Positions 53,101 to 63,900 of a stretch of DNA of 64,000 nt are shown here, piece by piece. This stretch comes from Ananas comosus (Eukaryota > Streptophyta > Magnoliopsida > Poales > Bromeliaceae): positions 2,383,902 through 2,447,901 of the forward strand of contig NC_033638.1 in assembly GCF_001540865.1 (NCBI RefSeq), in the 5' to 3' direction. How positions within the stretch are numbered: position 1 is the first letter of the stretch; every line of letters begins with the position of its first letter. Both the position numbers and the translations under genes were made by a program. The notes under the pieces are model-generated. The model did not search any database. It was given only the letters and a program-made list of their open reading frames with translations, and was not told the DNA's origin.

Positions 53101-55264
53101 ACAATTTGCTCTCGAGACCCAACTTCAATGCACTTTTAGTGCATTTGACTTCTTCGGCTTCTCCAAAGCATACCAACACGACTCTTGGTCGGTTTTAAAC
53201 GAAGTCCAACTCTCGTATTTCGAGAATTCACTTCCATACACCACATCACACATTCACACAAGTATAGGGTTCTACACACATATCTCACATGGTTCCACAT
53301 CAATTAATATGTTCACCTATTTAGAAGCATACAATTGAATCTCAACCAATAACCACATGTCACTCTACCCTATCATGCATGAATGTTACTATTCACATAT
53401 ATGCTCAAACAAGCTCCTCTTCAAGCTCTAAGTCTTCAACAATGGAGGAAACCCAACAAAAAGTAAGGAGGAGAAGAAAGGAGAGATCAAAACCAATTAA
53501 AATCCACCAAAAATGGAGAAGAAATCAAAGGGGGAGAGTCTCACCTTATTCTCCACTGTTTTGAGCTCAAGAGAGCTCTCAAAGGGGCTGGGGTGAGTTA
53601 TAAAGGGGTTGCAACAATTGCAAATACACCCCTCCACAACTTCAGCGCGCAGAGCAAAGTGTACCTGTACATGGGAAAGTGTACTGGTACAAGCCCTGCG
53701 CGGCAGCAACCCGAGCCTCGGGTTCGCAGAAAATCTCTAGTATACCGGTACAACCATCAAGACGTACCGGTACAAATCCTGTACCGGTACAACCATCAAG
53801 GCTGTACTGGTACACAGCCTAGCTAAGGCCAACCCGAGAGCAGGACCAATAATCCAACTTTTTGGATTTTGGTACAAGCTTTAAATCTCAATTCTCAGGA
53901 TGCGAGCCATAGGTCGGAACACTGTCAACGACCTTCTAGAATATCTGGCAAAGCTCGGAACACAGATCAAACACTTGAACCTCGCAATTTGCAAAGGTCC
54001 AGTGTGTTACAGAACCATACCCAAGTTCATGAACTAAATCCCATAAACCATGAACCAAGTTCATGATGCTTATTCAAGTTCGTGAACGAAACACCACGAA
54101 TCATACCCAAGTCCCATAAACTATGAATTAAGTTTGTAAACCAAACACCACGAACCATACCCAAGTTCATACACTATGAACCATAAACCATACACCAAGT
54201 TCATGAATCATAAACCAAGTTCATGAACCATACCTTATGAACCATGAACCAAATAAACCAAATTCATGAACCATACACCATGAACCATAAACCATAGACC
54301 AAATTCATGAACCTCATGAACCAAATTCTATAAGTCATATCCCATGAACCATACCCAAGTTCATGAACCAAACACCACGAATGTAACACACTGGACCTTT
54401 GCAAATTGCGAGGTTCGAATGTTTGGATGTATTTCGAGCTTTCCACATTTGGTTGAGGGTTATAGAATGCTTTTCGACCCTAGAAGTTCGAAAACCTGAG
54501 TTTTGGTTTGGTCCTGAGAGTTTTTACTCTCGGGGACCAGTCCCTGGAAGGAGAGACCGGTCCCCCAGTGAGCAGTGCTGCGGCAGCCCTGAGGCAACCG
54601 GTCCCTAGCAGGCGAGACCGGTCCCCGAGCGCGTCTACGCATTGAGAGACCGGTCCCGCACAGGGAGAGACCGGTTCACGAACGATGGTTTTTCGGGTTC
54701 GGAGCGAGAGACCGGTCCCTGCTGGGGAGAGACCGGTCCCTCTGGGCGAAAACTGCCCAGACCGGGCTGATGCAATATTGAATTTTTGAGGGGCCTCTTG
54801 GGATTTGTTACAATAGAGGGTCTATATGACCCCTCCACTCTCTCTTCTCCCCATTTCTCTTCTCTCAACCCTCTCTACACCCTTGATAGAGAAGAAGAAG
54901 AAGGAGGAGAAGGAGAGGAAGGAGAGAAGGAGAAGAAGTTTGGAGCTACTAGTGGACTTGGAGCATCTTCCTCANGCGGCCCCAGCTCGTACGGCGGGTC
55001 CTCCACCGACCGCTCCGGCGGCTCCTCTTCGTCGTCCTCCTCGCCGGCGGCCGCGTTAGGGTTAGAGTTCTGTTGGCCTGGGCGGTGGTGGTGGTGGTGG
55101 TGGTGGTGGTGGTGGTGGTGCTCGGAGAGGGCGTGGTAGGGGTGGGGGTGGGGGAGGAGGCGGCTGCGCAGCTCGACGAGGTCCTGCTGTGGCGTGCCGA
55201 AGCGGCTGGCGCCGATGGTGCCGCCGAGGACGACGAAGGTGAGCAGCAGACAGAGCGCGGTCAG
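47200..55264 (-). CDS. Xyloglucan 6-xylosyltransferase (GT34), broken
   Basis: Golgi type II membrane enzyme that adds xylose from UDP-xylose to the glucan chain of xyloglucan. The N-terminal part (54976-55264) has the signal anchor LTALCLLLTFVVLGGTIGA, SRFGTPQQDL, a His tract (CAC repeat), an acidic stem and YELGP. The catalytic part (47200-48139) has KPRVLLVTGSSPRPYENPVG, HYLLKSIKNKVDYCRVHG, the DXD-type WWMDSDAMF, HGWDEMVYD, DRPVFEADDQSAMVYLLATQ, HFVGCKPC and FNFGDNQIL, with a stop at 47200-47202. Problems: about 6.8 kb of repeats between Ns at 48140 and 54975, roughly 26 codons missing at that join; about nine codons lost with a frame change near 47950; two extra bases near 47790; one missing near 47733; one extra near 47310. 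A gypsy LTR replaces the codons before the anchor. XXT1/2-like genes are often intronless. Confidence 0.87.
48141..48674 (+). mobile_element. 3' end of the 3.2-kb LTR family
   Basis: It matches 34518-35028: TTCAGTTCTGCAGTTATTTC, the GCCCACTCGGGACT segment, GGAATCGCCTGGAGCTAGC, and the end GTCCCGGGGCGTGACA. It lies beside the N at 48140 inside the XXT gene. Confidence 0.75.
48675..49571 (+). mobile_element. LTR 3' part followed by a primer binding site
   Basis: Contains GTCGGTGGTCGCTCCACC, the GCCGAACCCACTGGAAACT block, GGTAAGGGCATAGCGCCCTA, and the end block with TCTGTCTGTTCGGCGTC. The end is altered (GGGCCTGGTA where GGGCGTGACA is usual). It is followed by AAATTGGTATCAGAGCATG at 49583-49601, a Met-tRNA primer binding site. 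Confidence 0.65.
49602..50696 (-). mobile_element. Truncated LTR in minus orientation
   Basis: It starts TGTCACGCCCAGGG one base after the primer binding site of the preceding plus-strand LTR, and mirrors that LTR end. Further blocks: GTTCCCAGTGGGTTCGGCCG, GGTTAACACTTGTTAACC, CCGTCTTCGGGGACC. It stops where another LTR begins at 50697. Confidence 0.65.
52792..53072. repeat. GGGACCGGTCCC palindrome doublets, cluster 2
   Basis: Four doublets at about 52796, 52877, 52958 and 53040. Each is an ACCGGT-type core followed 19-20 bp later by a second core and the constant CCCCGAGAGC. Some cores are decayed (ACTGGT, GCCGGT, ATCGGT). Confidence 0.8.
53650..53818. repeat. TGTACCGGTACA palindrome copies
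   Basis: TACCGGTACA or one-base variants occur about six times (for example TACCTGTACA, TACTGGTACA, TACCGGTACA), some 16-23 bp apart with shared ACCATCAAG spacers. It lies in the same LTR as cluster 2 but has a different palindrome. Confidence 0.75.
54012..54381. repeat. Palindromic GTTCATGAAC satellite, left part
   Basis: Irregular repeats of AAGTTCATGAACC, CATAAACC and ATGAACCAA types. The core GTTCATGAAC is its own reverse complement. It is the same repeat as 57084-57850, separated from it by a solo LTR. Confidence 0.85.
54532..54742. repeat. GGGACCGGTCCC palindrome doublets, cluster 3
   Basis: Four doublets with ACCGGT or ACCAGT cores 20-21 bp apart, for example ACCGGTCCC-TAGCAGGCGAG-ACCGGTCCC. 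Same design as clusters 1 and 2. Confidence 0.8.
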
Positions 55265-56189
55265 TGTTATGTACCGGATGATTTGAGGTGATTTGGAGGT
55301 GAGTTTGTGAAAGAGAAGGAGAGGTAGAGAAATAGAGAGAAATAGAGAGAGAGATTGGGAGGAAGAAAATAGGGTTTTAGAAGAATTTAGAATAGGATTT
55401 TGGGGAAGGAGAAGAGAAAGGAGTGGAGAAGAAAAGGATAATTGGGGAAGAAAACAAGCTAATAATTCATTTCCATTCCTAAGCCCTAGCTTACATTACA
55501 TCCTGATACGTATACTACTTAGTAGTTCCGTACAGAAAAGAGAATTATTTAATCTCTGAGGACTAAACAGCAAAAGTGACAAAAAAGAAGTGGCCTGGTT
55601 GGGCCGCCAATTCGGTGGTAGTTGGGCCCTCTTCCTGGGCTTCCTGAGCTCCTCTGCTGCTTGTCATGTATTCGGACTTGGGTCCATCCTTTTCCGTACT
55701 ACCCGCAACCCAGCGGGTCTTGGGTTTGCCATTTTGCCCCAATCTGAGCCCGCTTTGCCCGATCCATGCTTAACGGTAAGTGGGCGTCGGTTCCAGCCTT
55801 CTCCGCATCATCCACGACCCGGCGGATATTTGGTCCGCATTTTACGCCTGCTCCGGTGATCCGACCGCCCGATCCGCCAGCTCTCTTCTTCGCCCCAAAC
55901 GCCCCGGTTCTGTCGGGCTTCCTCCTCCGACCTCGATCCTCCCATTTTCCCTTCACCACCGACTATGCCCTAGAACTATCGAGCTCGCCTGAGCCCCTTC
56001 GAAGGCGCCTTCCCGCCGGAGTTCCGCCCGAGCGCCTTCCTGCCGGATCGCTCCGCTGAGCTCACTCGTCACCAACCTCCTGGTGTCACTTCTCTGCTCT
56101 ACTTTGTAAAGTTGACATTTTTACTACTCTCCCATGCTAACTGCTGCTACTACTACTACTTTTACCATTTATTCTTCAGGGTCATTACA
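55265..56189 (-). mobile_element. Gypsy 3' LTR inserted in the XXT signal anchor region
   Basis: On the minus strand it starts TGTAATGACCC and ends CATAACA (925 bp), and the polypurine tract TTAAGGGGAAGGGAT lies directly before it. It joins XXT coding sequence (CTGACCGCGCTC) with no N between. The GAGGACAAGGATGAACTTAA segment before the tract is typical of the 3' end of plant gypsy elements. Confidence 0.72.
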
Positions 56190-56218
56190 ATCCCTTCCCC
56201 TTAAGTTCATCCTTGTCC

Positions 56219-56980
56219 TCAAGGATGGAACTTGTTGACTGGTTTGGGGGATCCCATTTGCTTCCCCTGCGGCACATTCTTCTTCTTCAAAGTTGCTTCT
56301 TTTAAGCCACCTTTGGAAACCTCCTCCGGCTGGCAGCATGGACGACGGCCCTGTTGGGGCAGGGGCTCACCCTTGGGCCCTTCAGGATGTCGCAACCTGT
56401 GCGCTACCGGATCCCCCCTCGTCAAAAAACTGGGTTGGTTCAGAGAAATGCAACTACAGTTTTGGACTCCTTCTGTCAGCTCCGCTATGCTACTTGTGGA
56501 ATATTGACTCCCAGTGTACATGTCTTCTCCTAGAGAGAATTTTACTCCTTTTTCTATCAGCATGATATGTGTTCTCTGCTGTGCTCTATTTGATTGCCCT
56601 TCAAAAATGTATAGTACTTGTCCCCTTCGCTTGAACCAACTCAAATTTGAGTCCTTCATAATATTTCCAATAGTAATCGAGGCATTAGTTGGAGGGTAAT
56701 AGGTATATTTACCTTGTAAAATTCTCTCTCCTGTTGAGAAGCGGCATCTGGTGTAGGACCACCACTCTTCAGGTTTCAGCTTCTTGTAACAATGTGTAGG
56801 CCTATTTTCTTCCTTAGCTCTTAAGCAAACTTCACATTCTGGCACTAACTGATCCACATCCCTTTCGATTCCTGACCATCGAGTGAACTGTTCAATTCCC
56901 TTATCAACTTGCCACGCCCTGGAAGTATGAAATTCAGTTAACAGATGGTCTTCTTCACTTCGATTTTGCACAGCTTGCAT
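56219..56980 (-). pseudogene. Gypsy internal remnant, possible integrase zinc finger
   Basis: An open frame of 253 codons. Its first part, HLLTEFHTSRAWQVDKGIEQ then DVDQLVPECEVCLRAK, resembles the H2C2 zinc-binding start of a gypsy integrase, with the second His lost. The remainder (TYYPPTNASITIGNIMKDSN and on) I do not recognise. It leads into the polypurine tract and the LTR, which supports retroelement origin. Confidence 0.5.
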
Positions 56981-57083
56981 CCATNTTTACTTCCGCTTTT
57001 ATTCTAGACGCCTTATATGTGTAGACATATGGCGGGTCTGGGCACGCTACCGGGAGGGCCTCCGCCGGTCCCGGGGCGTGACA

Positions 57084-57850
57084 ACGAACCATACCCAAGT
57101 TCATGAACTAAATCCCATGAATTAAACACCACGAACCATACCTAAGTTCATGAACCAAAACTCATGAACCATACACCAAACTTCATGAACCATGAACCAA
57201 ATCCATAAACCAAGTTCATACACCAAATCCATGAACCATATCTAATGAACCAAATCTTACATACCCAACCTCATGAACCATAAACCTCATGAACCAAGTC
57301 CATAAACCCAAGTTCATACACCAAATCCATTAACCATATCCGAGTTCATGAACCAAATCTTACATACCCAACCTCATGAACTATAAACTTCATGAACCAA
57401 GTCCATAAACCCAAGTTTATATACCAAATCCATGAACCATATCCAAGTTCATAAACCAAATCTTACATACCCAACCTCATGAACCATAAACCTCATGAAC
57501 CAAGTCCATAAACCCAAGTTCATATACCAAATTCATAAACCATATCCAACTTCATGAACCAAATCCCACATACCCAACCGCATCAACCAAGCTCATGAAC
57601 CATGAAGCAAATCTCATGAATCATGAACCAAACCATACCTAAGTTCATGAACCAAATCTCATGAACCAAATTTCATAAACCACATACCAAACCTCATGAA
57701 CCGTAAACCAAGTTCATGAACCAAATGAACTAAGTTCATAAACCAAGTTCATACACCACATCCCATGAACCATATACCAAACCTCATGAACCATACACCA
57801 AATCCTATGAGCCATACACCAATCCATACCTAAATCTCATGCCCAAAGTT
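57084..57850. repeat. Palindromic GTTCATGAAC satellite, right part
   Basis: About 770 bp built from CATGAACCA, AAGTTCATGAACC, CATAAACC and ACATACCCAACCTC elements in irregular order, with a higher-order repeat of about 113 bp at 57230-57590 (ATACCCAACCTCATGAACCA returns three or four times). It runs directly into the stem-loop array. Confidence 0.85.
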
Positions 57851-57866
57851 CATCATGAACATTTTC

Positions 57867-58608
57867 TTTACTCTAGCTCATATACCTAGAGTAAAAATTA
57901 AATATCGACTACCCCTAATACATATACTTAAGGCTAAGTCAATCGCCTTAGCACATATAACTAAGGCAAAACATCTTCAAATCGACAGAGTTCTAAATTA
58001 TATACTTAGAATTCAGTCAAATGATATCAAATATACTTAGAGTTCATCCGACTAACCCTAATACATACCCTTAGGGTCTAGTCAACTTTTTGCTCTAGCA
58101 CATATATCTAGAGTTGAAGTCAAACTAAGCTCGACTGGTCCTAATACATACACTTTAGGTCTAGTCAGTCTTTTACTCTAGCATATCTACCTAGAGTGAA
58201 ATCCATACCCGATTGAGCCTTAATACATATATTTGAAGCTCATGCAAATCAAACCCGACGAACCCTAGCATAATACCTTAGGGCTTAGTCAGATCCTCAC
58301 TCTAGCACATATAACTAGAGTGGAAAAGATATTAAACTCGGTTAATCCTGATACATATACTCAGGAATTAGCCACTCTCTACTTTCGGGTAATTCAACCC
58401 ACCTCAATACATATATTTGGGGTCGAGTCACATCTCCACCTTGGAATATACAACCAAGGTGAATATAATCGGACTCTAAGACATATACTTAGAGCCAATT
58501 AGACTCTAATACATAGAGTTTAATATCGACTAGGTCTTAACACATATACTTAAGACCTAGTCAATCTCAAATCCAACTGAATTCTAATACATATACTTAG
58601 GATTCAAT
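57867..58608. repeat. Array of about 19 stem-loops with constant loop, varying stems
   Basis: At about 40-bp steps, short inverted repeats enclose a loop near YACATATAC. Examples: CACTCTAG-CACATATAA-CTAGAGTG (58298), CACCTTGG-AATATACAA-CCAAGGTG (58438), ACCCTAA-TACATACCC-TTAGGGT (58055), GCCTTAG-CACATATAA-CTAAGGC (57946), TCCTGA-TACATATAC-TCAGGA (58346). The unit at 58529 has a 13-bp perfect stem from GACTAGGTCTTAA. The stems differ in sequence yet stay paired. Two units (58026 and 58502) have lost an arm or part of the loop. No coding sense. Confidence 0.85.
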
Positions 58609-58639
58609 AAACCGAGATACAATTCATCTCATCCAATCT

Positions 58640-59896
58640 ATAAAGGTCTCTTAATCGAAGGTGCCCCAATGCCACGGGGGTAATTAACAATAGATGTTTA
58701 CATCTATGAGAAGCCATGGATCCGCAAAACATATACATATAAATACTAATCTGAATCATGAATACAACCCCACGGCCCAAAATCCATCGACCGTGCGAGG
58801 TGCGTCATTCGTTGTGGCATACATACTTATGCATGTTGCATTGAGTTGCTAGTGGACATATGCATGAGGATATGATGTGAGAATAGACTAGATTCATGAG
58901 GAACTAGTATGTGAACCAATGATATTGTAAAATTGGAAACCATTGCATATGTGGCCGACTTGAACATAACATGCCTTGTGATTGTTTGGGGTTTGGGATC
59001 CCCGATGTCCTCGGGCGGGAGGACTAGATCATACTCGATTCGTCTGTTGTATTTGAGGAGGTCGCGCCTCCCATTTCTGTGAGCTCCGGAGTTGTATCAC
59101 AGTGAGATTGAGACGGGGGAGGTGGTCACGACGGTGTGCCCCCGGCAGACGGTCACGGTGGCGTGACGGTGTGGAGCGAGTCGTGGTTCGACCTTTGGGT
59201 GAACCAATTGGATTGAATCAAGGCATGTTCATGGCATTACATAGAGTGCATACATGGTAGAACTTAAACTTATTCTTGTTGACATGATTGGTACAGGCAT
59301 AGCTACACATTTGAAGCATGATGTAGATGTCTATGAGCAAGTTAGGCTTATTGTTTATCTATTATCTCTTTGACATATTGTCCTATTTATTGCTTCTATG
59401 CCTTTCTTAGACCTAATGGGAAAATCGGCGGGGTCGGCGGCCGAACCCACTGGGAACTATGGATAATAGTTCTCACACCCTGTTTTGCAGAGCCTAATAC
59501 GAGCGCGTGCGTCGAGGATCGCGGCAAGGGCATCACGCCCTAGATAGAGTGGACCACCGGCGTTAGCTCACTACCCTCAAGTATAGAAAGGAAAGAATGA
59601 TATGTAAAACCCTTTTGTGAAGAAATGTGATGTATATGAGAGATGGCATTTTGGTTATATGTATGAGAAGTAAAGTGAAATATGTAATGGTTCATGTATG
59701 TGAACAAGTGATGTAATAGATAGTTTAAATTCTCTTATATCTGTGATTGTCTCTCTCAATGTTGAATGCTAACATCTCTTGTTGGATACGTATGCATAGA
59801 CTTTGTTACGCTTCGGACGGACAGGGGAAACTCTGTCCGTTCGGCAGGTCTGTTTCGAACCCGAACTGTCCAAATTGGCGATGTCGGGTCATGACA
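58640..59896 (+). mobile_element. LTR 3' part ending GGGTCATGACA
   Basis: Shares with other LTRs the GTGAGCTCCGGAGTTG block, a CGGCAGACGGTCACGG segment, GGCCGAACCCACTGGGAACT, GGCAAGGGCATCACGCCCTA and the end block GACAGGGGAAACTCTGTCC. Its left edge against the stem-loop array is not defined; 58640-58790 may belong to either. Confidence 0.6.
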
Positions 59897-60929: not shown

Positions 60930-63900
60930 GTCACGCCCCGCCCCGAGACCGCTACCAATTTGGTCCGGTTCGGGCGCGGCGAACGGACGCCGAACGGACA
61001 ACACCTTCCCTATCCGCCCAAGGCTCAACAACCATATCATGTACAAGAATTTGCCGAGGAGAAATTCAACAACATACATGATACAACGAGCACCGCAAGT
61101 GCTAGATAATTAAGAGCAAGAATCACAAGTAACATACGAGTGAAATAAAGAGAGATACGTCTAGCTATTACATCCACAAGGCATTCAACATTTACATTTT
61201 TTATTACATTTACATCTCCAAAATGAAAACATATTCTTCTCATAATACAAAATGGCTCTCCAACATAAGTAACTCCCAAATATATCACATCTCTATGTAC
61301 ACGAGGGTACTCTAATGCAAAAGGGAAAGCTACTAGCTACTAGGGCGCTATGCCCTTACCACGGTCCTCTGCCGATGCTCTCTCGCTAGGCCCTGCAACA
61401 AAGTAGGGTGAGAACTATATAAATATAGTTCCCAGTGGGTTCGGCCGCCGACTCTGCCGATCTTCCCACTAGATCCAAGCAGGCACAAGCAGATAGATAG
61501 ATAGATAGATATGAAATTGAAGTGCAACATAGTAAAGTAATATGCAACATTCTACTATGCCTTCAATAACCAATGGAATGAGCTACAACATAGTATATGA
61601 TCTATGCCTCAATAATCCAATGTATGAACAACTACATAGTATGCAATCTACACATGCTACTATGCCTCAACAGTAAAGAATGCATAGAACTACTACATAG
61701 TATGCAATCTACTCAATAACAAAGGTGAGGATACGCTCACTCACCCAACTCACAATCTAGTCTCAAAGGGGAGGATCCGCTCACTCGCCCGACTCACAAT
61801 CTAATCACAACGGGGAGGATCCGCTCACTCACCCGGCTCACAATCAATCTCAACGGGGAGGATCAGCTCACTCGCCCGGCTCACAATCAATCTCAACGGG
61901 GAGGATCCGCTCACTCGCCCGGCTCACAATCAATCTCAACGGGGAGGATCTGATCACTCGCCCGACTCAACACAGGTACCACAACCCAATCTCAATCTCA
62001 CAAGTGAGGATCAGCTCACTCACCCGACTCACTTGGAGAGGATCTGCTCACTCGCCCAAGACCGTCTGCAGGACCCCATAAGGCTATCCCTCGGGACCCC
62101 ATAAGGCTATCCCTCCCGTGTGACAACTCCGAAGCGCACGCTTGTGCGGAGCGAGCGCCTACAAGCTCTGAACAAACATGTGAGTATGATCAAATCCTCG
62201 TCACAGAGGATACCCTGCTACTAGGGTCAACATCCACTTGGGAACTATTTAATCTATAAGTTCAACATGTAACAAGTATTTTCATCTATACACTACTTGT
62301 CATGCCACTCGTCAAGTTGTCAACATTGTCTAGATGCCACTCGTTCTCTAGTCCTTGTCAACACAAGATTAAGTTCATCATTTAACTTTACCACTGTAGG
62401 GTTCTATGTCACAATTCCTCTATTCTCATGCCTCCTAACTCAAGTGCCAAACTCATGTTGCTACACTACTCAGGATCATGCAAGAATGGAAATGCGACTG
62501 TCCAATACCCTATCATGCATAGTACTAACACTAGTCCAAATGCCACTCTTCTAGGCCATTTACATGTCCAAGTTTATCTTTATGCCACTATAGGATTCCA
62601 TGTCACAAGACCCAATCCTCATGCATCCCTAGTCCATGTGTCAAGCTCACAATGCTACACTACTAAGAAGCATGCAAGGAAATAGAAATGCAACCATCTA
62701 CACATCCTATAAAGCATAATGTTGATATATGATCAATACATTTAACTTAGACATAAAAGGAAGCCCGATTACTTCGGGATGGACACGCCCCACCTTTTAT
62801 CGCGTTCCGATTGCTCGTAGTCACTTGCAATCGGCCTCCCGCGGCAACCGCTATCCGGCTCGGCCCGCACTTGCAATTGCGCACCAACCGTGCGCCGCTT
62901 CGCAGCCTCAGAAATTATAGGTCTAGGTTTGCCGCCACGGTGCTCCAAATCCGTTTCCATGATTTTTAGTCGTCACCTCGGCCGTCCAGGCAGAAACGAA
63001 GCTAAATTGTCAGTTTCTTCAATATCTTTAGAACGGCTCGACGAATCGTCGAACCGACTTCGCCAACGCGTTCGTGTGCCTAGCAATTAGGTTTGTATAG
63101 ATTCAATTTAGATCAAACCCCTATATTTTACAAAACTCCATTTGGAGCCCTAACATACAATTAACCTCCAAATAATCTAAATTAAATGGAGCAACATGCT
63201 AACAATACTCATTAGAGGCTACTAGAATCTCATACATAAAGGGTTAAACTAAATCCTTGCTTAATCATGAGATCTCGCCTTAAGCCACCATGCTCATCAA
63301 GCTAAATCCACCATTGGAAAGCTTGCTTCCACCATTAGAGAGCTTCAACTTCATCTCCAACATCATCTCCTCCGAAATTTCGAATTTGAGAGATGGATCT
63401 AGAGAGATGGAGGAGGAATCTAGAGAGAGAAAGGAGAGTTTCTCTCTCCCACCATGTGTGCGTGTGTGTTGTGTGTGTGTGTGCATTCGGTTGAAGGAGA
63501 AGAAGAAGCCTAGTAGCTTCTACTTATAGTCAACACCCCTCAATAGTAGTATACACTATTCACTTCAGTTTGTAGCGCAGGTACAGATATTTTTTGCTTG
63601 CCCTTCTGAATGTCCGATTGAGCTCAAATTTGGCAGTCATGCTCGGTTTTACTTAAATTAACGAAAGAATTTTTAATCTTTCAGTTTCGACCCCGTTTGG
63701 TCACCGAAAGCTCTACCGAACTGTAATCTCTAGCAGATAGTAGTCGGATTTTATTTTTCACTTTCCGGGCGTCAGAATGGTATGAAACTTTAAATCTAGC
63801 CTCATAAAAATAATTCTGACATATCCTACAGTTTTCATAATTTTCTGACACTGTGCATTTTCTGCTAATTTATCTGCTCCGTTTCACACAGAAAATTCTA

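Follow-up and report, generated by a model that had tools for sequence, protein, structure and literature searches.

The window analysed here, a stretch of 64,000 nucleotides of the pineapple (Ananas comosus) genome, contains an array of short hairpins that is the distal U3 of a retrotransposon long terminal repeat (LTR). As listed in Table 1, 18 intact hairpins and one hairpin without its left arm were found, in agreement with the preliminary description, which had counted about 19 stem-loops at this place. The stems are 6 to 16 bp long, with mismatches counted in, and enclose loops of 7 to 10 nt, close to YACATATAC; the loop of the unit at 58498 is only 5 nt long. Exact copies of the loop core ACATATA number 10, and 15 are counted when up to one mismatch is allowed. 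The units belong to two partly alternating classes, GACTnnCCTAA-loop-TTAGGnnAGTC and TTTACTCTAG-loop-CTAGAGTAAA, and the main types at the loop end are CTAA/TTAG or CTAG/CTAG; the units are thus of two types and not of one. The one-armed unit has lost approximately 20 bp, including the left arm, in the window copy and in one other (L010), and the remaining 10 of the 12 copies compared have both arms.

Table 1. Positions of the hairpin array and of the associated LTR features in the window.
Feature	Position	Strand	Remark
LTR minisatellite of the CATGAACC type, upstream part	54016..54381	+	start of the LTR fragment; same minisatellite, split by the insertion
Insertion TGTAACAC...GGGGCGTGACA inside the minisatellite	54382..57083	.	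read from the sequence
LTR minisatellite of the CATGAACC type	57084..57866	+	same LTR, directly 5' of the array
U3 hairpin array (18 of 19 loop-anchored units intact)	57867..58608	+	
Hairpin units 1-4	57867-57895, 57910-57936, 57945-57967, 57984-58018		
Hairpin unit with deleted left arm	58028..58045	+	deleted in the window copy and L010; from comparison of copies
Right arm of that unit, the only arm present	58037-58045		
Hairpin units after the one-armed unit	58055-58077, 58093-58113, 58133-58166, 58171-58201, 58216-58240		
Hairpin units, continued	58253-58294, 58297-58323, 58346-58366, 58398-58426, 58432-58466		
Last four hairpin units	58474-58494, 58498-58524, 58525-58565, 58578-58606		
TATA-like box CTATAAAGG	58638..58646	+	31 bases past the last hairpin; putative function
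Block GGTCTCTTAATCGA	58645..58658	+	few changes across the three array types
Single-locus hairpin downstream of the TATA-like box	58688..58709	+	presumed R region
LTR 3' end	58823	+	GGCATACA in the window, GGCAGACA in most copies compared

In the window, the LTR is a fragment truncated on its 5' side, and its 5' part was not found there. The minisatellite, the length of which varies between copies, is interrupted by an insertion flanked by a 5-bp duplication, ACGAA (54377-54381 and 57084-57088). The ends of this insertion are unlike each other (TGTAACAC... and ...GGGGCGTGACA), and the left end is the inverse of the sequence that ends at 54015. A search of Rfam gave 11 matches with E values of up to 1, all of which fell short of the gathering score and lay outside the array; nine of these are located at 54827-54940 and two at 53640 and 63372.

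In each of three genome searches for copies, 40 candidates were scored, out of 485, 657 and 299, respectively. The search with positions 57860-58720 (40 of 485 candidates scored) gave at least 41 matches including the query itself; of the 40 non-self matches among those scored, 38 extend over 700 or more of the 861 bases, and identity to the query is 85-92%. Like arrays are thus present elsewhere in the genome, as the preliminary description had suggested might be looked for, and two further types of array, F2 and F3, were found in addition. Thirty copies, including that of the window, were aligned hairpin by hairpin, two of them being the LTRs of one element; because the whole array is repeated in this manner, it was inherited via retrotransposition. 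The copies have in common a sharp right end, after which the sequence continues into differing flanks or into AAAATGGCACGCCCGGTGGGAC, and this common end with AAAATGGCACGCCCGGTGGGAC is the 3' end of the LTR with the primer-binding site (PBS). Junctions of this kind at three mismatches or fewer occur at 73 places, while a reversed-pattern control gave 0. In one element (C468), the two LTRs are 97.0% identical across 1589 bp, the polypurine tract AAAAGGTGGGGGG precedes the 3' LTR, and the coordinates give an LTR length of approximately 4.8 kb, for which the exact 5' end is approximate.

No recognised pol was seen in the two copies inspected (C468 and L059): a Pfam search with 10 of the 16 internal open frames (at least 90 aa) of C468 and with 4 of the 12 frames of L059 gave no transposon-related match, and the frames of a further copy (L096) were judged by eye. 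Two open frames after the PBS of L059 (5-1387 and 1321-1794) appear gag-like by eye, and the frame at 1321-1791 gave no match in Pfam at E values of up to 10. Non-autonomous LTR elements without a recognised pol, the TR-GAG and LARD elements, are known in pineapple (PMC6022998, available in part); in the available main text of that paper, the words "hairpin", "palindrom" and "tandem" do not occur.

At most of the 73 junctions, the LTR terminates in GGTGG, GGTCG or CGCGG. The regions upstream of 13 junctions (5 GGTCG, 5 CGCGG and 3 others) were sampled, and an array was matched in seven of them (L060, L061, L062, L064, L066, L067 and, partially, L068), with no array match in the remaining six (L063, L065 and L069-L072). 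The arrays were assigned to types by similarity, the window array being F1, those of L060-L064 F2, and those of L066-L067 F3. The two F3 copies align to the window array at 77-80%, and the F2 arrays align to F1 in short pieces only. In the F2 arrays, successive hairpins have TACATACAC or ACATATA as the loop and longer arms rich in A+T (for example, AAATTAAACTCTAA/TTAGAGTTTAATTT); their order, spacing and outer arms differ from those of F1. The commonest F2 inner arms (AATCCTAA and GACTCTAA) are found in F1 too, and the F2 stems therefore do not count as independent of those of F1; common inner arms occur in all three types. Fold z scores, against 20 shuffles each, are -24.1 for one F2 array and -11.0 for one F3 array. 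Twice in the window array, like units are spaced 83 bp apart, and the number of dimers of approximately 83 bp varies among F3 copies, which makes tandem duplication of dimers visible.

The LTR end tags GGTGG, GGTCG and CGCGG do not correspond one to one with the array types. Four F2-type matches (one on C1362 and three on C3) lie directly before GGTGG junctions, which suggests a reshuffling of arrays and LTR ends among families. F2-type arrays are carried by L083 and L087 (on C1362 and C1) and by the matches on C3. The LTR of L078 combines an F1-type array and extra dimer copies with an F3-type downstream part and is possibly a recombinant. In the F3-like LTR of L079 (340-1000), tandem AACCGACCGTCATGTCATTAAACTGAGC units take the place of the last F1 hairpins between the array and the promoter. 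A local expansion of repeated matches on C2945 was set aside as another repeat unit, distinct from the hairpins.

Folding of the window array gave z scores of -11.6 for RNA and -12.5 for DNA against 20 shuffles each. The adjoining CATGAACC minisatellite, which is itself self-complementary, scores -8.9, so the fold z score alone is poor proof and its weight is limited. The covariation test was anchored by the loop motif only, which gave 21 anchors, some of them out of register. Watson-Crick pairs fill 99 of the 168 arm cells, compared with a mean of 61.3 (sd 6.5) after swapping arms between units, and none of 20,000 swaps reached 99. With swaps restricted to units that have the same two inner bases, 66 pairs were observed against 53.1, a value reached by 28 of 20,000 swaps. 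Like loops elsewhere in the window (n = 347) have a mean of 1.81 of 8 positions paired, with a maximum of 8, compared with a mean of 4.71 in the array. The arms change together, as originally claimed, far beyond what swapped arms give, and these results support the view that simple duplication and drift fail to explain the joint changes between units.

The array is followed by a candidate promoter, from which transcription would start near 58670. A 27-base pattern taken from the TATA-like box matches 285 places in the genome at three mismatches or fewer, compared with 4 for the control; F2-type copies are among these places, and the F2 box there reads TACAAAGG. The TATA-like box is not preserved as such in F2, where it is TTACAAAGG or TTACAGAGG. 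The single hairpin farther downstream, beyond the presumed start of transcription, keeps an almost constant distance to the block GGTCTCTTAATCGA, and its position recalls the R-region hairpins of retroviruses. Its loop is the tetraloop CTTG in most copies and TTTA in the window. The form CAATAGATG-CTTG-CATCTATTG is found in many F1 copies, and the corresponding forms are CAATAGACG-CTTG-CGTTTATTG in F2 and CAGCAGATT-CTTG-AGTCTGTTG in F3. CUUG closed by a G-C pair is a stable RNA tetraloop.

Registered by the tetraloop alone, 46 of 48 places could be compared (30 F1, 4 F2 and 12 F3, with L070 and L072, which have other end types, counted with F3); the window, because of its TTTA loop, and one of the two L064 places were left out. 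Over the eight outer pairs, 98% of the cells are canonical, compared with 30% and 39% when the arms are slid by one, and the 46 places contain 44 G.U and 6 A.C cells. For the 17 distinct arm pairs, canonical cells number 143 of 153; the arm-swap mean is 135.2, 14 of 10,000 swaps reach the observed value, and G.U and A.C account for 19 and 7 cells, respectively. The R hairpin covaries between the three LTR types through G.U states and is clearer evidence of a selected RNA structure than the array; an RNA role for the array itself gains plausibility from it.

For comparison of array units among copies, 941 motif anchors were collected from 58 sequences (30 F1, 20 F2 and 8 F3). The 34 recurrent unit types, some of which are out of register, have a Watson-Crick count of 128, compared with 85.0 (sd 7.7) after swaps, of which 1 in 5000 reached this value. 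In the same set, A.C mismatches number 18 against 32.5 expected and G.U pairs 32 against 34.3; A.C is depleted and G.U is not. In the majority stems, the ratio of G.U to A.C is 8:3 in F1, 7:8 in F2 and 7:1 in F3, and chance hairpins in window positions 1-54000 have a ratio of 198:188. Pairs with shared variants have ratios of 27:24 (F1), 43:25 (F2) and 27:15 (F1 and F3 together), counts in which duplicated units are not independent.

Substitutions on internal and terminal branches were compared with the structure defined by each copy in turn. In F1, stems have fewer internal-branch substitutions, with a median odds ratio of 0.67 (range 0.50-1.03) and p < 0.05 for 17 of the 30 defining copies; stratified by substitution type, the effect is weaker (odds ratio 0.71, 13 of 30 definers, median p 0.075). 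No significant stem depletion was observed in F2 by this test (median 0.77, 4 of 20 definers). An initial version (odds ratio 0.44 and p 3.7e-6 for F1, 0.89 and p 0.5 for F2) was dropped, since its stems had been defined from majority pairs and the test was biased. Fixed differences between F1 and F3, taken on 7 of the 30 F1 rows and 8 F3 rows, occupy 8 of 168 stem columns and 19 of 252 other columns, or 6 of 180 and 21 of 239. Two shared Watson-Crick states were seen at 3 of 244 pairs in F2, at none in F1, and at 10 of 201 pairs in F1 and F3 together, the last figure being partly due to alignment of non-orthologous units. Stem changes among copies are mostly ordinary decay, confined to one arm and dominated by C>T and G>A. 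Selection on pairing in the array, the first of the two explanations in the preliminary description, is moderately supported by these comparisons, and the strand and molecule that pair, sense RNA or DNA, weakly so.

The reading that we prefer, with a probability a little under one half (about 0.47), is that selection on pairing maintains the U3 hairpin array, probably at the level of the sense RNA. A few progenitor hairpins would have been multiplied, partly as tandem dimers of approximately 83 bp, and the units would then have diverged while master copies stayed selected for the pairing of each unit. The hairpins would most likely act in the sense RNA, where U3 lies at the 3' end of the genome-length transcript and precedes the second hairpin, that of R, either as a structured element of the retrotransposon life cycle or in an encounter with small-RNA silencing. 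It is doubtful that the array is, in particular, a structured RNA element of about 19 hairpins with the same 9-nt loop and a self-complementary ATAT core, its pairing selected through G.U steps; multivalent loop recognition, a kissing-loop signal for dimerisation or packaging, or a Dicer decoy, beside the TAR-like R hairpin, would be examples of such an element. The main alternative to an RNA role is that the same dyads form a promoter array in DNA, each palindrome being an enhancer site for a dimeric factor or a cruciform, with no part for RNA. This is rather unlikely, because a protein dyad needs constant half-sites, whereas the outer arms vary and are yet complementary; the depletion of A.C but not of G.U also argues against it, as do the F1 loop columns, which change as often as the spacer (0.34 and 0.34 changes per column on internal branches, 0.89 and 0.88 on terminal branches). 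The location directly 5' of the TATA-like box, as for the repeated motifs of Sireviruses, the different dimer copy number in F1 and F3, the near equality of G.U and A.C in F2 majority stems, and the inner arms common to the three types nevertheless speak for a DNA array.

If the pairing were a relic of ancestral hairpins that were duplicated, spread with the LTR and are now unmaintained, the decay-like changes with C>T and G>A dominant, the nonsignificant F2 branch test, and the inner arms common to F1 and F2 would follow; double changes to Watson-Crick pairs in F1 also number only 4, no more than the approximately 6 estimated by hand from single-change rates. We consider a relic unlikely in view of the pairing across unit types, which far exceeds that of swapped arms, the F1 stem depletion on internal branches, and the scarcity of F1-F3 fixed differences in stems. 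Rewriting of one arm from the other, by the hairpin-templated repair that the preliminary description had offered or by template switching of reverse transcriptase, would give covariation without selection, and perfect stems do exist (e.g., 58528-58562). However, replacements that altered both partners on a single branch and gave a Watson-Crick pair number 3 in F1 and 9 in F2, all terminal and none internal, and stem changes are mostly restricted to one arm; templated rewriting is therefore rejected as the main process and is very improbable. The window contains 13 N, and single N occur at some loci, but an assembly or chance artefact is refuted by the dispersed copies, 30 of which align hairpin by hairpin, and its probability is negligible.

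Clusters of palindromes in plant LTRs are already known. In the available parts of the published account, LTRs of Sireviruses (Ty1/copia) contain 8-32 copies per element of palindromic repeated motifs upstream of the TATA box, and the stems of these motifs are constant, with a CGG-CCG signature in all but one and 66.5-100% identity between copies (PMC2829016). The pineapple array is similar in that many short palindromes are clustered just 5' of the LTR TATA box and have an element-specific sequence. It differs in that the loop is constant and the stems vary but re-pair, in being AT-rich, in lacking the CGG-CCG core in its main unit types, and in the PBS of its element, which does not match TATCAGAGC of Sireviruses; multiple AGGGGGAG polypurine tracts and an integrase signal are among the Sirevirus's own features. 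In maize, the Sirevirus palindrome clusters are hotspots of small RNAs (Bousios et al. 2016, as described in PMC10760457 and PMC5311732); they resemble the pineapple array in their strong predicted hairpins in the LTR cis region, with high variability reported. The repetitive hairpin elements of sponge mitochondria (PMC2800124, available in part) are likewise repeated hairpins in non-coding DNA; they belong to organelle genomes, outside any LTR, and elements of this type were ruled out by context. In the titles and abstract openings of the literature searched, with incomplete coverage, no name was found for an array with a constant loop and varying stems. The view that the repeat is unlike any named in plants is thus qualified: the array is the U3 of a multicopy LTR, and palindromes 5' of a TATA box have been published (PMC2829016 and PMC10760457, available portions).

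For the palindrome clusters of plant LTRs, a role as sites in the DNA has to be told apart from one as structures in the RNA. Since the Sirevirus stems are constant, pairing and sequence are inseparable there, whereas in pineapple the stems vary and pairing is kept in 58 sequences of three array types, which makes the question testable by covariation, probing and stem-swap reporters. The promoter block behind the array matches 285 places in the genome. Another tandem array, with a 43-bp unit (TCAATCTCAACGGGGAGGATCCGCTC...), was observed at 61713-61969, apparently within another LTR that starts near 60932.
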